Shown piece after piece: positions 38,766 to 58,770 of a stretch of DNA of 64,000 nt. Position 1 is the first letter of the stretch; the number at the start of each line of letters is the position of its first letter. Source of the DNA: Eubacterium sp. (GTDB lineage: Bacteria > Bacillota > Clostridia > Lachnospirales > Lachnospiraceae); contig JAGBNF010000027.1 in assembly GCA_017634555.1 (NCBI GenBank), forward strand, positions 1-64,000. Reading direction: 5' to 3'. The translations under genes and the position numbers were made by a program. The notes beneath the pieces are model-generated. The model did not search any database. It was not told the origin of the DNA and saw only the letters and a program-made list of their open reading frames with translations.

Positions 38766-40805
38766 TTACTTGTTCATAAGCGCGATCATCTTATCAACAT
38801 CATATTCCCTGATAACCTCCACACCTTCAGCACATTCTACAGTCTTATTTGTAACGACGATCTCAGCCTCGGATATATCCGAAACCACTTCTGATGCCAT
38901 CATTTCAAAGAATGTATATACGTTTATGATGTCGGTCACATGGAAATAGTCCGTAATAAAGCTCATATCTGTTGTGCCTGCCACTGTCATAGAGCCGTTA
39001 CGTGCCATGTTGAGCCAGATGAACTCATTTGTCTGAAGATCAACTCCGAAGAGATATGCAAATGTACTGTCGCAGTTTATCATGAATGAAGACTTAACTG
39101 TCTTAGGCTCGTATATCTCACCTGAGTCAATAACATCTCTCGTCATGTAACCTGCCTTACAGAAGCACTTTTCAAAATTTATACCTGAATATACATTATC
39201 GCAGAATATGAGGTAATGCATATCCGGATACATCTTTCTGAATTCTTCAAAATTGATATCGAAATACTCCGAACCACCGTTGTATCCGCTGGTCTCATCG
39301 CCTGAGTAAACTATAGCATCGGAATTTTTATCAGCCATAGTTCTCCACGAAAACTCTCTTCTGGTTCCGTTATCGCCTATTCCGAAAACCGAAAGATCGA
39401 TATCATTTACCTTCTCCCAGTAGGTGAATGCACGTATCTTCTTAGTCTCCGGCATCTTCAGCTTCGAACCTCTTGTGAGTACACCGAAGCCGCCCTGAGA
39501 AGTAGTTTCCTGGATTGGAAGTGCATAGTTCTTCATGTCCGGATCGATGTATACCTTACCGAGACGGCCCTTCAGAATCTTCTGCAGATTCTCAGAAATA
39601 TACTTCGACAGCATAGCCACCTGACCCTCTGAGATTACAGACTTTCTTCTCTGCTGCTCCTCCGGAGTCTCTGTATGAATCTTCAGCATATTATGCTTTG
39701 TAAATACAAAGTTTCTCGCAGCGCTGCCCTTTCTCTGTGAGTACTGGATCAGCAGCTGGATCAATACGATAACATTCTTTGTATCGATGCAGTCGCAAAG
39801 ATGCTGCATATCCTCGAAGGACTCACATCTGCTTATGATGTAGTTCATATTTCTGAGGACTGCCGCTGAGCCCTTGCCTGTCTTCAGAGCTTCGATTGCA
39901 GCCTTAATATTCTTCTCTGTCATGTGTCTCTCGAACTCAGAGTACACTGACTTATTCTCACTGCCTCGCATAGCATCAACAAACTGCTGTGCCTCTTCAG
40001 ACACTGCCTTGTAATGGATATGGTGAAGCAGACCGTTCCAGAGCTTCTTCTTCTCGAAACAGTTTATGATATCAACCCTGCCGTTAGCAAAGATACGGTT
40101 TATCACACCTGTAATAAACTTTCTTGTCTGATTCTTCAGGTTGAGCTTCTTTATATTATTGTTATGATATTCTATGTAATTGATCTCATCAACGAGACGT
40201 ATTACATCAGACATACTGAGCTGGTCAGCCAGTTCTAAATTCTTGGTATCAACCATAAGACGGACTATGGTATTCTTCGATGCAATCTCCATACCGTTCA
40301 GTCCGAAATCTATAACATACTCCTTTACCAGCCTATACTGTATATCACTCAGAGGTCTCGTACCTGCAAGCAGGTTTGCGACGATCTCGCCGATAAGGAC
40401 TATTGCTTCCTCTTCCGTAACAACCGAGAATTCCTTGATCTCGGCATTTTCCTTAAATGCAGCTCTTTCAAACTGCTCCTCAAACAGCGAGTGTCCTGCT
40501 TCAGAGAAATGTCCGAATCCGTAGGTCACTGCATAGTGAACCAGCTGATCGAACAGAAGCTGATCCGGAAGGAGCTGTCTTACTGATTCCGGAAACCCTC
40601 TGTAGAAAGGCTCCGGTACTCTTTCACCCAGCTGACTTGACGCAAATCTGATCATCTCCGTACGTACAAGCTTCTCGCCCTTGATTATTCTTATGTTAAA
40701 AAGGTTCGCAAGTGCAAACAGAACCTCAAGCTGATGCTCAGGCTGTTCACCCTCAGAAACCAGGTAATGCTTATCAAAAAGATGCATTTCGTAAATTGGC
40801 TTCAT
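38766..40805 (-). CDS. TerD-like C-terminal domain protein, candidate partner of tandem Y-RNA-like RNAs
   Basis: 679 aa, cytoplasmic. Residues about 1-420 are helical with HEAT-like spacing and no family I can name. Residues about 440-640 resemble TerD: RAFTYWEKVNDIDLSVFGI, DAIVYSGDETSGYNGG (cf. the metal-binding GDNRTGEGDGDDE of TerD) and a beta-rich end FAYLFGVDL...FIWLNM. Two tRNA-mimic-like RNA elements lie 24-213 bases upstream on the same strand. Ro60/Rsr, the known Y-RNA partner, also has a helical-repeat ring (TROVE), but with a vWA domain instead. I see no DxSxS vWA motif here. A divergent Ro-like RNA-binding role is therefore a hypothesis. Weak ribosome site (AGAGG, 8 bases from ATG). 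Confidence 0.72.
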   Translation of the reverse strand: MKPIYEMHLFDKHYLVSEGEQPEHQLEVLFALANLFNIRIIKGEKLVRTEMIRFASSQLGERVPEPFYRGFPESVRQLLPDQLLFDQLVHYAVTYGFGHFSEAGHSLFEEQFERAAFKENAEIKEFSVVTEEEAIVLIGEIVANLLAGTRPLSDIQYRLVKEYVIDFGLNGMEIASKNTIVRLMVDTKNLELADQLSMSDVIRLVDEINYIEYHNNNIKKLNLKNQTRKFITGVINRIFANGRVDIINCFEKKKLWNGLLHHIHYKAVSEEAQQFVDAMRGSENKSVYSEFERHMTEKNIKAAIEALKTGKGSAAVLRNMNYIISRCESFEDMQHLCDCIDTKNVIVLIQLLIQYSQRKGSAARNFVFTKHNMLKIHTETPEEQQRRKSVISEGQVAMLSKYISENLQKILKGRLGKVYIDPDMKNYALPIQETTSQGGFGVLTRGSKLKMPETKKIRAFTYWEKVNDIDLSVFGIGDNGTRREFSWRTMADKNSDAIVYSGDETSGYNGGSEYFDINFEEFRKMYPDMHYLIFCDNVYSGINFEKCFCKAGYMTRDVIDSGEIYEPKTVKSSFMINCDSTFAYLFGVDLQTNEFIWLNMARNGSMTVAGTTDMSFITDYFHVTDIINVYTFFEMMASEVVSDISEAEIVVTNKTVECAEGVEVIREYDVDKMIALMNK

Positions 40806-40828
40806 ATTTTTTTACCTCTATATAATTT

Positions 40829-40890
40829 GATGATATCATCGGATTAAATTTGATTAACTGTTAAGGAGAAGTAAATCCGACTAGCTATCG
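40829..40890 (-). ncRNA. Second, short Y-RNA-like stem-loop (no tRNA module)
   Basis: Read on the minus strand. Outer GAT/ATC pairs, internal loop AGCTA/TGATATC, then TCGGATT (40880-40874) with AATCCGA, enclosing TACTTCTC and a small TTAA-CAG-TTAA loop. It repeats the closing stem of the upstream element with paired substitutions, but has no tRNA-like insert. It ends 23 bases before the TerD-like gene's ATG, so it could alternatively be a leader structure on that mRNA. The separate-RNA interpretation is inference. Confidence 0.6.
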
Positions 40891-40895
40891 TTTTC

Positions 40896-41018
40896 TCGGC
40901 GATATCAACGGATTAAAATTTGGTGCTCTACCAATTGAGCTACGACTGCCGAAGCAGTCGACGGGACTCGAACCCGCAACATCCAACCCCTAGAGAAGTA
41001 AATCCGTTTAGCTGCCGA
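40896..41018 (-). ncRNA. Circularly permuted tRNA-like RNA (YrlA-type Y RNA candidate)
   Basis: Order on the minus strand: closing stem TCGGC-AGCTA-AACGGATT; then TTGG (40986-40983), variable ATGTT and T-arm GCGGG-TTCGAGT-CCCGT; then acceptor 3' strand CGACTGC (40960-40954), loop TTCG, acceptor 5' strand GCAGTCG (40949-40943) and TA; then D-arm GCTC-AATTGGTA-GAGC, A, CCAA (40923-40920); then ATTTT and AATCCGTT-GATATC-GCCGA. All tertiary-fold residues (U8, A14, G18G19, T54T55C56, A58) are canonical, but the halves are swapped. The acceptor is sealed by C(UUCG)G, and no anticodon exists. TATAAT stands at 41023-41018. This matches the published YrlA topology (Ro-binding stem at the anticodon position). 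Confidence 0.85.
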
Positions 41019-41062: not shown

Positions 41063-41317
41063 TTAGGCAGTCAGGCCGGCCGCATTCGTCTGACCGACTA
41101 CGATTATATCATCCATAGTCACCCCAAATGCAGCAGCGAGAACTACCAGATTGTCGATGGTCGGAAGTGCCGCTCCGCGCTGCCACTTGTAAATAGCCTG
41201 CGGTGTGGTAAATCCGAAAATGTCTTGCAGATCTGCAACTGTGAGACCCGCTCTCTTGCGTAGAATAATGATATTTCTACCAGTACCTACAGTGTCAATC
41301 ATCGGTATCATTTCCAT
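41063..41317 (-). CDS. Small XRE-family helix-turn-helix regulator (copy 1)
   Basis: 84 aa, a single Cro/CI-type HTH: LRKRAGLTVADLQDIFGF then TTPQAIYKWQRG, followed by LPTIDNLVVLAAAFGVTMDDIIVV. A close paralogue lies at 51.9 kb with the same TPQAI(Y/F)KW and TMDDI(I/V)VV ends. AGGAGG with five-base spacing fixes the start. It is transcribed toward the permuted tRNA-like RNA and the TerD-like gene, 45 bases away, and is a candidate local regulator. Confidence 0.9.
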   Translation of the reverse strand: MEMIPMIDTVGTGRNIIILRKRAGLTVADLQDIFGFTTPQAIYKWQRGAALPTIDNLVVLAAAFGVTMDDIIVVGQTNAAGLTA

Positions 41318-46000: not shown

Positions 46001-47155
46001 CTAGTTCTGTCCCTCTGCTTTGTAGTTATAAATAGGCTTTATTATCTTATCTATATGAACCGTTTCTCCGATAACAGCTGCGATATCTTCTATTCCTCTA
46101 TATGCGAAAGGACTCTCATCAAGTGTATCCTTGTTAATGCATATGGAGTAGATTCCATCCATAGCTTTCTTGAAGTCCGATACAGTATGATGCTCAGCAA
46201 CCTCCGAGCGTCTGTAAATTCTTCCCGCTCCGTGTGGTGCAGAACAGTTCCAGTCCACATTTCCAAGGCCTGTTCCCAGGATTATTCCGTCTCGCATGTT
46301 GATCGGGATGATAACTTTCTCGCCTTCCTTGGCACTTATCGCACCCTTTCTGAGTATCGGCTTTGCATCATTGCCCGGCTTCACATCCGAGAAATCCACG
46401 TAGTTATGAATGCAGGTAAAGCTTTCCTCTATCTTCCACTTCATTCCTCCTACTATGGAATCGATGATCGCATCTCTGTTGAGACGCGCAAACTCCTGAA
46501 TTATCTCGATATCATGAAGGTAATCCTCCATCAGCTGTCCGGTGAGGCAGGTCATTTCATATGAAGCATATCCCTGCTTCTTCATCTGCATTTCCTTCTG
46601 GCCCGTTCTCAGATAGTAATCTGCAACCTCCATTCCCAGATGTCGGCTTCCCGAATGAACGACCAGGTACACATTTCCTTCCTCATCCTTATCAACCTCT
46701 ATGAAATGGTTTCCTCCGCCAAGGGTTCCGACGCTTCGACTTGCCTTTCTAGCATTGATGTTCCTTGCACATCTCAACTCCGAAAGGTCGATCCTGTCTG
46801 CATACTTATGCTCCTTCTCACGGATTCTCGGGCCAACCGGTACCGCTTCTCTTATCACAGAATCAAGTTGCTGGAAATGTATCCCCTTCGTCTTAACCTT
46901 GGCCATCGTCATTCCACAGCCGATATCGACACCCACCAGACTCGGAAGAATTGAATCTCCTACTGTCATTGTAAGCCCGATAGTTCCCACCTTACCCGGA
47001 TGAACATCCGGCATAACCTTTACCGAACTGCCTTCAGCACTCGGATGATTGCAGATCATCTGAAGCTGTTTTCTGGCATAATCTTCAAGAGCATATAGCT
47101 CATTTTCTACCGTATACACAGTAGCATTTGTATATTTTCCGTATATTGTTAACAT
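46001..47155 (-). CDS. rtcB: RNA ligase RtcB
   Basis: 384 aa. GTP- and Mn-dependent ligase that joins 2',3'-cyclic phosphate (or 3'-P) and 5'-OH RNA ends, repairing cleaved tRNAs and other RNAs. Visible: MPDVHPGKVGTIGLTM, GVDIGCGM (metal Asp/Cys), GGGNHFIEV (guanylate/metal), HSGSRHLG, and APHGAGR near residue 310 preceding the guanylated His. GAGGG supports the start. Preceded by a small Cys-rich gene with a 15-base gap. No rtcA or rtcR is in the window. A tRNA-like RNA locus lies 5 kb downstream. Confidence 0.95.
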   Translation of the reverse strand: MLTIYGKYTNATVYTVENELYALEDYARKQLQMICNHPSAEGSSVKVMPDVHPGKVGTIGLTMTVGDSILPSLVGVDIGCGMTMAKVKTKGIHFQQLDSVIREAVPVGPRIREKEHKYADRIDLSELRCARNINARKASRSVGTLGGGNHFIEVDKDEEGNVYLVVHSGSRHLGMEVADYYLRTGQKEMQMKKQGYASYEMTCLTGQLMEDYLHDIEIIQEFARLNRDAIIDSIVGGMKWKIEESFTCIHNYVDFSDVKPGNDAKPILRKGAISAKEGEKVIIPINMRDGIILGTGLGNVDWNCSAPHGAGRIYRRSEVAEHHTVSDFKKAMDGIYSICINKDTLDESPFAYRGIEDIAAVIGETVHIDKIIKPIYNYKAEGQN

Positions 47156-58655: not shown

Positions 58656-58671
58656 ATAAATAACACTTCTA

Positions 58672-58770
58672 TAAATCAGCATCCCTACGTTGGCATTATC
58701 CAAATCAGGTTAACAGGTCGAAGGTTACACCTTCCTCTCAGCCGGTCTACCGGCTCCCTCCTGTGCAATT
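58672..58770 (-). promoter_or_regulatory. TPP riboswitch (THI element)
   Basis: Conserved aptamer blocks on the minus strand in order: GGAGGGAGCC, CTGAGAGG, GACCTGTTAACCTGAT, GGATAATGCC and GTAGGGA. Binds thiamine pyrophosphate and, with the terminator downstream, shuts off thiSFGHEC. Confidence 0.97.

Follow-up and report, generated by a model that had tools for sequence, protein, structure and literature searches.

Two Y-RNA-like RNAs lie side by side on the minus strand (41018-40829) of the 64,000-nt stretch of Eubacterium sp. DNA analyzed here (the window), and they probably form RNPs with the protein encoded by the adjacent gene, with the head of the first RNA mimicking a tRNA and the whole acting around damaged tRNAs. 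The RNAs have a conserved fold, stand in arrays, and are linked across genomes to the gene of this protein; from sequence comparison we infer the binding and function of the RNA-protein pair, including the processing of the RNAs and the role in tRNA damage. The features to which we refer are the following.

40896..41018, minus strand: RNA 1, a Y-like RNA with a permuted tRNA head, recognized by sequence, fold, YrlA match and covariation; 124.8 bits with covariance model R1, RNA 1 itself being among the sequences that built R1
41014..41018, minus strand: 5′ strand of the basal outer stem, UCGGC, pairing with 40896-40900 (GCCGA)
41009..41013, minus strand: conserved 5′ side of the internal loop, AGCUA, its columns invariant in alignments A2 and A3
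40901..40906, minus strand: conserved 3′ side of the internal loop, GAUAUC; RATATC is matched at at least 5 of 6 positions in 95 of 116 copies
41001..41008, minus strand: 5′ strand of the 8-bp basal stem, pairing with 40907-40914 (AACGGAUU/AAUCCGUU)
40995..41000, minus strand: UACUUC behind the basal stem, invariant or at least 90% conserved, its TTACTY part having belonged to the motif used to collect copies
40961..40977, minus strand: T-arm, GCGGG-UUCGAGU-CCCGU, with T-loop letters; stem 100% paired, two-sided changes at 2 of 5 pairs
40943..40960, minus strand: acceptor stem, CGACUGC-UUCG-GCAGUCG, a perfect 7-bp helix closed by UUCG; two-sided changes at 7 of 7 pairs
40925..40942, minus strand: U8 A9 linker and D-arm, GCUC-AAUUGGUA-GAGC, with the letters A14, G18, G19 and A21 and the R15-Y48 pair
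40829..40889, minus strand: RNA 2, headless, with the same base (GUCGGAUU/AAUCCGAU stem, UACUUC); 54.5 bits with model R2 (E=2.7e-9) at 40827-40890, one shortened copy of RNA 2 being among the 52 rows of R2
38766..40805, minus strand: partner gene, encoding a 679-aa protein and proposed RNA partner; NF041916 match (E=2.9e-25) and SCO0854-like profile match
41063..41317, minus strand: Cro/CI-type HTH gene just 5′ of the RNA pair, a recurrent neighbor (PF01381, E=3.3e-9)
46001..47155, minus strand: RtcB RNA ligase gene, 5.2 kb upstream of the partner gene (PF01139, E=2.5e-56)

An earlier sequence-only reading had placed a permuted tRNA-like RNA at 40896..41018 of the minus strand, and the element is present at precisely those coordinates. 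The parts which that reading described, namely a T-arm half ahead of the D-arm half, a perfect 7-bp acceptor stem, D- and T-arms, and the absence of an anticodon, can all be read in RNA 1. It erred in letting the RNA ends meet at the anticodon stem: the anticodon-like stem (UUGG/CCAA) runs on into the conserved basal stem. The UUCG closure of the acceptor, which it had also pointed out, holds for RNA 1 but not for the family, in which a TTCG tetraloop occurs in 4 of 30 copies and loop lengths range from 2 to 11. As that reading had anticipated for tRNA finders, ARAGORN makes no call at RNA 1, and an ordinary tRNA gene was therefore rejected. A structural scan for the permuted-tRNA module detected a single instance in the 64 kb of the window, and 2.1 Mb of block-shuffled sequence yielded none; in real sequence, the scan was fooled by tRNA clusters (S-CRM01 625-677, L168) and returned one unexplained signal (L110). 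The predicted minimum free energy of RNA 1 is -42.3 kcal/mol, a modest result (z -2.5), as 4 of 200 shuffled sequences fold equally well. Since folding by itself is only moderately convincing, the case for RNA 1 rests on comparison.

For this comparison, relatives of the partner gene were found at 155 genome-contig stretches, 80 of which were kept (L031-L110); they come mostly from Lachnospiraceae of rumen and gut. RNA copies were collected with the motif GCTA followed by TTACTY, searched within 800 nt upstream of the partner gene at the 80 loci, which yielded 116 copies in 62 loci. The copies share a base that consists of the outer stem, the AGCUA/RAUAUC loop, the 8-bp stem and UACUU, of which GCUA and UUACUY are common by construction of the search. 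Because GCTA belonged to the collecting motif, the conservation of AGCUA is only partly independent; likewise, for the 3′ strand of each copy the candidate with the best pairing was taken, GATATC earning a small bonus. A fully complementary (8/8) partner was found for 89% of the 8-nt stems of the 116 copies, compared to 4% in shuffled sequences, so that chance is no explanation for the basal pairing.

Covariation was analyzed in 30 tRNA-headed copies, comprising all 29 from the relative loci and RNA 1 of the window. Of their pair cells, 99.0% are paired, compared to 80.7% after shuffling, and two-sided changes occur at 23 of 31 pairs, compared to 13.7 after shuffling. The four pairs of the outer helix are 97.5% paired with two-sided changes at 4 of 4 pairs; the 8-bp basal stem is 98.8% paired with such changes at 7 of 8 pairs; and compensatory changes are seen at each of the seven acceptor pairs. 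When the 3′ partner is shifted by 1-3 columns, pairing falls to 35-47%. At the tertiary pair 15-48 (R15-Y48), 21 of the 30 copies have G-C and the other 9 have A-U, with zero exceptions (p=7e-8, relatedness ignored), and the letters expected at tRNA positions are found in 30/30 copies for A14, G18 and A21, and in 27/30 for G19. The T-loop letters and TAGC are invariant or nearly so, both having been used to class heads; in particular, GGTTCRA served for classing, and the conservation of the T-loop letters is thus not selection-free. By contrast, the acceptor pairs and the 15-48 pair played no part in any selection of copies. Among 52 headless copies (51 of the 71 from relative loci, plus RNA 2 of the window in shortened form), 93.7% of pair cells are paired.

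The sequence-only reading had named beforehand the loss of the tRNA-like pairs in relatives as the finding that would speak against it; in this comparison the pairs are kept. A chance hairpin is ruled out by the covariation in headed and headless copies and by the 15-48 pair. Given the conserved tertiary features, and given that the acceptor and 15-48 pairs are free of selection, the head of RNA 1 most likely folds like a tRNA elbow. RNA 1 is a real Y-RNA-like tRNA mimic.

The copies form rows of one to four small RNAs at each partner-gene locus that has RNA (67 of 80), and RNA 2 sits between RNA 1 and the 679-aa open reading frame, which starts ~90 nt downstream of RNA 1 on the same strand. 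Classed by short motifs, 29 of the 116 copies carry a permuted tRNA head and one a Leu-like class II head, while 15 have just a T-arm and 71 lack a head. The order is regular: a tRNA-headed copy is the first in the array in all 27 loci that have one, and the last member, which adjoins the gene, is headless in 52 of 62 loci. There are 81 distinct stem pairs among the 116 copies. The Leu-like head (L074:6835-6974) resembles tRNA-Leu by eye in its long variable arm and D-arm, which suggests that heads are drawn from different tRNAs. At L003:1040-1197, an ordinary tRNA is called with 46 bits over the junction of two adjacent permuted RNAs, because the D half of the first RNA runs into the T half of the second; tRNA finders can be misled in this way.

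By sequence, the partner is a divergent relative of MXAN_6230/SCO0854 with a TerD-like C-terminus, and not a Ro60. Its NF041916 (MXAN_6230/SCO0854) match extends over residues 275-606 with 88.6 bits, below the cutoff of 600, and a profile comparison with four SCO0854-like Bacillota proteins aligned 579 columns (E=3e-43). Pfam yielded no match in the 679-aa protein of the window and only scattered single-member matches over 30 family members; TerD (PF02342) was matched weakly, with E=0.045 in 1 of the 30 members and E=0.034 in L114. Some plasmid-borne relatives are annotated as TerD family (two) or RING finger proteins. An N-terminal RING was not seen: Pfam matches none in the protein of the window, and among 79 proteins of the family only C249, C536 and C550 reach 97% conservation as cysteines, with no cluster. 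Conserved E/K/K/W/H residues lie around 251-264 of the partner. PDB sequence searches with the partner returned nothing usable, and PADLOC gave no match for it. Of 99 related genomes, 34 have a relative of the reading frame; these genomes all belong to the genus of the window, and some of the relatives are contig-edge fragments. For SCO0854-like genes in other Bacillota (nine loci: L134-L137, L140-L144), neither Rfam nor R2 detected such an RNA; R2 also found none at three plasmid loci (L190-L192), nor did Rfam at L190. Among the papers listed by a literature search, none mentions SCO0854 or MXAN_6230, and no paper was found that combines TerD, Y RNA and phage; we do not claim absence from print.

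Covariance models R1 and R2 detected the RNA at 67 of the 80 partner-gene loci, counting R1 matches of at least 53 bits and all R2 matches except those in L057 and L040 (E above 0.02). The RNA lies within 0.6 kb upstream of the gene at 64 of these loci, 2.5 kb upstream at L081, and just downstream at L099 and L104. Among the 13 loci lacking RNA, five have less than 250 nt of upstream DNA (L058, L064, L066, L078, L086), L094 and L101 each have a T-arm copy whose stem is longer, and two match genomes with RNA elsewhere (L044 = G032, L060 = G009). At the other four (L063, L071, L097, L105), no RNA was found and we have no explanation.

Protein and RNA also go together in genomes. With R1 counted at 60 bits or more, RNA was found in 33 of 34 genomes with the protein, compared to 2 of 65 without it (99 genomes, uncorrected for relatedness); a 53-bit match in G028 fell below this limit and belongs to a different RNA, located between rtcB and a slipin-like gene (see below). 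The sole miss among protein-positive genomes is G041, in which a T-arm copy can be recognized by eye. RNA was found and the protein was not in two genomes, namely G051 (88% complete), whose copy has a damaged 3′ basal strand, and G034 (80% complete), whose copy is intact. In an order-wide sample of 392 genomes, R2 found the RNA in precisely those three in which the partner gene is present at full length (uncorrected for relatedness). Weak R1 matches of ~30-46 bits occur in many genomes and were not counted: several span model positions 37-99, as neighboring tRNA genes would, the one in L168 is a tRNA cluster, and others are the rtcB-slipin RNA. Copies apart from the gene were found in G039, G001, G035, G009, G032 and G450. 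Those in G039 and the single-contig G001 lie between other genes, in G001 at 23 kb from the partner gene, while those in G035 and G009 lie behind an FHA-like gene. In two species (L155:4968-5020, L156:1479-1532), the stop codon of an FHA-like gene that adjoins an argH-like gene is immediately followed by a headless RNA, the arrangement being the same in both (gene names by eye).

Promoter-like sites precede 39 of 59 first copies, compared to 14% in shuffled sequences, and 4 of 53 later copies, which is the shuffle level. Most of those before first copies are spaced to start the RNA near the basal stem. Since they precede first copies only, array and gene probably form one transcript, which would need processing. 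In the window, a separate promoter scan detected no such site ahead of RNA 1.

We also examined neighboring genes. An HTH gene similar to that of the window occurs at 8 of the 80 relative loci, upstream in 7 of the 8. The RNA ligase gene rtcB lies within 6 of the 80 loci (eight matches, all on the strand of the partner gene); in L034, it ends 281 nt before the partner gene and 50 nt before the first RNA, and in L036 and L037 it is found on both sides of the partner gene. In the genus, 36 of 61 genomes carry rtcB, with and without the partner protein, and compared to this rate rtcB near the partner gene looks enriched, the loci being non-independent. In Salmonella, according to an excerpt of PMC7790460, rsr, Y RNAs and rtcBA form one operon that is activated when tRNA fragments build up. 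Separately, a conserved non-coding region of ~400-450 nt between rtcB and a slipin/SPFH-like gene (named by eye) contains a permuted tRNA-like head on a different base (L152 5093-5580, L161, L162, L163, L164, and L167, in the last before the slipin gene alone). This head scores 38-48 bits with YrlA in L152, L162, L164 and L167, with R1 matches of 39.7-53 bits there. The window also carries a TPP riboswitch at 58665-58770 on the minus strand (65.2 bits).

Relatives of the system are present in phages. In each of three IMG/VR contigs, the partner gene (41-53% identity) is preceded by four to six copies of the RNA. Remote relatives are carried by ten distinct INPHARED phages, nine of them represented by records of 115-485 kb and one by a fragment of 16 kb. 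By script, permuted heads were found in 4 of the 10 phages, beside relatives of 25-30% identity; they lie 0.2-0.6 kb from the gene and overlap no annotated tRNA (Weasels2, RcXuper, RpAliso with two, and S-CRM01). Rfam YrlA, run on RcXuper and Weasels2, gave 40.7 bits in the former and 26.4 bits (E=0.21) in the latter. Arrays are visible in 9 of the 10 phages, by eye only, SCTP-2 being the exception. With a strict script for the base, Weasels2 (four copies) and LpeD (two) stand out among nine of the ten phages (XacN1 left out), as do L181 (three) and L183 (four), and not L182, among the IMG/VR contigs; in WXIN and L182, no core of the scripted spelling was found. In the phage gaps, 26 of 35 (74%) pass a stem test at 7/8 pairs, compared to 63% of shuffled sequences, which is no clear excess, and 13 of 35 pass at 8/8 pairs, compared to 9%, which is an excess. 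As the 7/8 test hardly beats shuffled sequences, most phage arrays rest on reading by eye. The gene relatives in Weasels2, RcXuper, RpAliso and S-CRM01 lie among tRNA genes; in Weasels2 rtcB follows 3 kb on, and in RpAliso a tRNA nucleotidyltransferase gene is nearby.

Three further observations were made in phage DNA. In RpAliso (L193:3273-3335), the acceptor loop of a permuted head opens with ACCA, as if it were the remnant of a tRNA 3′ end. In L182:4001-6063 and L183:4001-6147, the partner gene consists of two reading frames in different frames, split near residue 345, that is, between the N-terminal half and the TerD-like part, which fits either split genes or recoding. In RcXuper (L187:1732-2148), a permuted-type tmRNA (RF04321, 108 bits; RF01849, 106 bits) lies just upstream of the RNA array.

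How closely does RNA 1 match the Y RNAs already known? Bacterial Y RNAs are described together with Ro60 in an excerpt of PMC8394870. The family shares with YrlA the permuted head (T-arm, closed acceptor, D-arm) and a basal stem formed from the two ends. The sequence-only reading had assigned RNA 1 to the YrlA type. This stands for the head, which is a permuted mimic of that type, but not for the rest, as the base differs from the Rfam YrlA consensus and the score stays below threshold: RF02553 aligned the head of RNA 1 with 43.3 bits (E=2e-8) at a gathering score of 69, and the full model in two relatives with 47.1 and 46.5 bits (E=4.5e-8 and 6.7e-8), again under the gathering score. That a Y RNA of the genuine Ro60/Rsr type is involved, with a Ro60 gene that was missed or has diverged past recognition, nevertheless draws on the YrlA-like head, on W-x-x-L-L and L-R-N-L stretches of the partner that recall TROVE by eye, though not significantly in hhalign, and on the 72% completeness of the assembly itself. 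We consider it very doubtful. The absence of a Ro60/Rsr gene, noted in the earlier reading, was borne out by searches for TROVE, which found none in the genome of the window and none in 34 genomes carrying the partner gene, 22 of which are at least 90% complete and at most 5% contaminated (34 of 36 such genomes were counted, G024 and G030 with gene fragments being left out), while the same search found TROVE in 6 of 299 genomes of the phylum; Ro60 as a neighbor gene was accordingly rejected. In addition, hhalign of the partner against four TROVE proteins gave E=0.014 and a probability of 3%, the alignments being shallow and a hidden TROVE fold being conceivable, and the letters of the base are unlike the Rfam consensus. 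At three of the six TROVE loci of the phylum (L147, L149, L150), a permuted-tRNA module lies nearby; these are probably ordinary Ro60-Y RNA pairs and a useful positive control. A permuted tRNA gene that is spliced and decodes, suggested by the arm order, is virtually inconceivable. The earlier reading was right to set it aside, since it is contradicted by the anatomy: there is no anticodon loop, the acceptor loops are closed at 2-11 nt, and headless paralogues have the same base.

Two other explanations were considered. The RNAs may be leader elements, that is, 5′-UTR structures through which the partner protein or another factor would control its own mRNA, with no separate RNA product. Their position within 0.6 kb upstream of the gene at 64 of 80 loci and promoter-like sites before the first copy only, hence probably one transcript of array and gene, would fit this. 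However, in L099, L104 and phage Weasels2 it is the gene that comes first and the RNAs that follow, copies occur away from the gene (in G032 and G009 with none adjoining it), and a plain leader needs no faithful tRNA tertiary features; we therefore regard a purely cis-acting leader as unlikely. A role in cis, be it the only one or a second one, is possible given that the majority of arrays stand 5′ of the gene. Alternatively, the RNAs might neutralize a toxin or defence protein in the manner of type III toxin-antitoxin systems, either restraining a toxic protein or serving as decoys for a tRNA-attacking enzyme. Tandem RNAs beside one protein gene and probably in one transcript, the occurrence in phages and the conserved E/K/K/W/H residues speak for such a pair, and its decoy part overlaps with our preferred explanation. 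Type III antitoxins are near-identical repeats, whereas the copies here vary in stem and head (81 distinct stem pairs among 116); PADLOC did not recognize the partner, which at 679 aa exceeds the usual size of type III toxins; and SCO0854-like relatives exist where no such RNA was found. Overall, a type III-like pair seems quite improbable.

We thus favor two members of a small Y-RNA-like family (41018-40829) that would form an RNP with the protein of 38766-40805. In this RNP, the basal stem with its AGCUA/RAUAUC loop and UACUUC would be a putative protein-binding handle, and the part beyond the base an exchangeable head. The head of RNA 1, which faithfully imitates the elbow and acceptor of a tRNA but does not decode, may recruit or decoy a tRNA-binding factor, be it a processing enzyme, a nuclease or a modification enzyme. 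The SCO0854/MXAN_6230 relative would take the place that Ro60/Rsr occupies in known bacterial Y RNPs. Damage to tRNAs, or their cleavage, is the probable setting in which the system acts, perhaps together with RtcB, phages apparently using it too. As RNA 1 stays below the Rfam threshold and no Ro60 was found, we advise against classifying it as a Y RNA of the Ro60 type; by analogy it probably works like one, with the base bound by protein and the head displayed to tRNA-binding factors.

More broadly, we lean slightly toward a second, Ro60-independent class of Y-RNA-like RNPs, in which tandem RNAs with a single type of protein-binding base and swappable heads (permuted class I tRNA, Leu-like class II tRNA, T-arm only, or none) would assemble on SCO0854/TerD-like proteins, both in Lachnospiraceae and in phages whose hosts differ widely, serving tRNA surveillance, repair or defence against tRNA cleavage. 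A TerD-like protein that may stand in for Ro60 suggests a second, unexplored way to build such an RNA-protein machine. If so, the role of Y RNA heads becomes testable by comparing heads on one base, SCO0854/TerD-like proteins gain a proposed partner RNA and a testable activity, and a phage-borne tRNA-mimic system is marked. If the same head also rides on RNAs tied to a different protein, the head would be selected for itself. An excerpt of PMC7765460, citing Sim and Wolin 2018, reports YrlA in several phages, so that the mere occurrence of a YrlA-like RNA in phage DNA is no novelty; what is new here is the partner gene, arrays whose heads can be exchanged, and, in phages, the association between such RNAs and this protein family.

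Among known systems, the Ro60/Rsr Y RNP has an RNA that is bound by the protein and tethers PNPase. The RNAs of its YrlA/Rsr form (RYPER, RF02553) resemble ours, as far as the excerpt of PMC8394870 goes, in that the ends pair as a basal stem and the permuted head has D-, T- and acceptor arms; ours differ in their sub-threshold score, another conserved base, tandem arrays with headless and T-arm-only members, and the absence of Ro60 in the 34 genomes searched. With the rsr-yrlBA-rtcBA operon, as excerpted from PMC7790460, they share the linkage of Y RNA genes to rtcB, whereas here a SCO0854/TerD-like protein fills the protein slot and the rtcB linkage is occasional (6/80 loci). Phage-borne Ro60/TROVE, in excerpts of PMC7824862 and PMC7765460, likewise places parts of a Y-RNA-type RNP in large phages, but the adjacent protein in our case is TerD/SCO0854-like. 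MXAN_6230/SCO0854 proteins (NF041916) match the partner over 275-606, yet with 88.6 of 600 bits and no RING seen, and such RNAs were not found at the nine loci of this family scanned in other Bacillota. Finally, type III toxin-antitoxin systems (ToxIN-like) also set tandem RNAs beside a protein gene, whereas the system described here has divergent RNAs with a tRNA mimic, a larger protein and orphan RNA copies.
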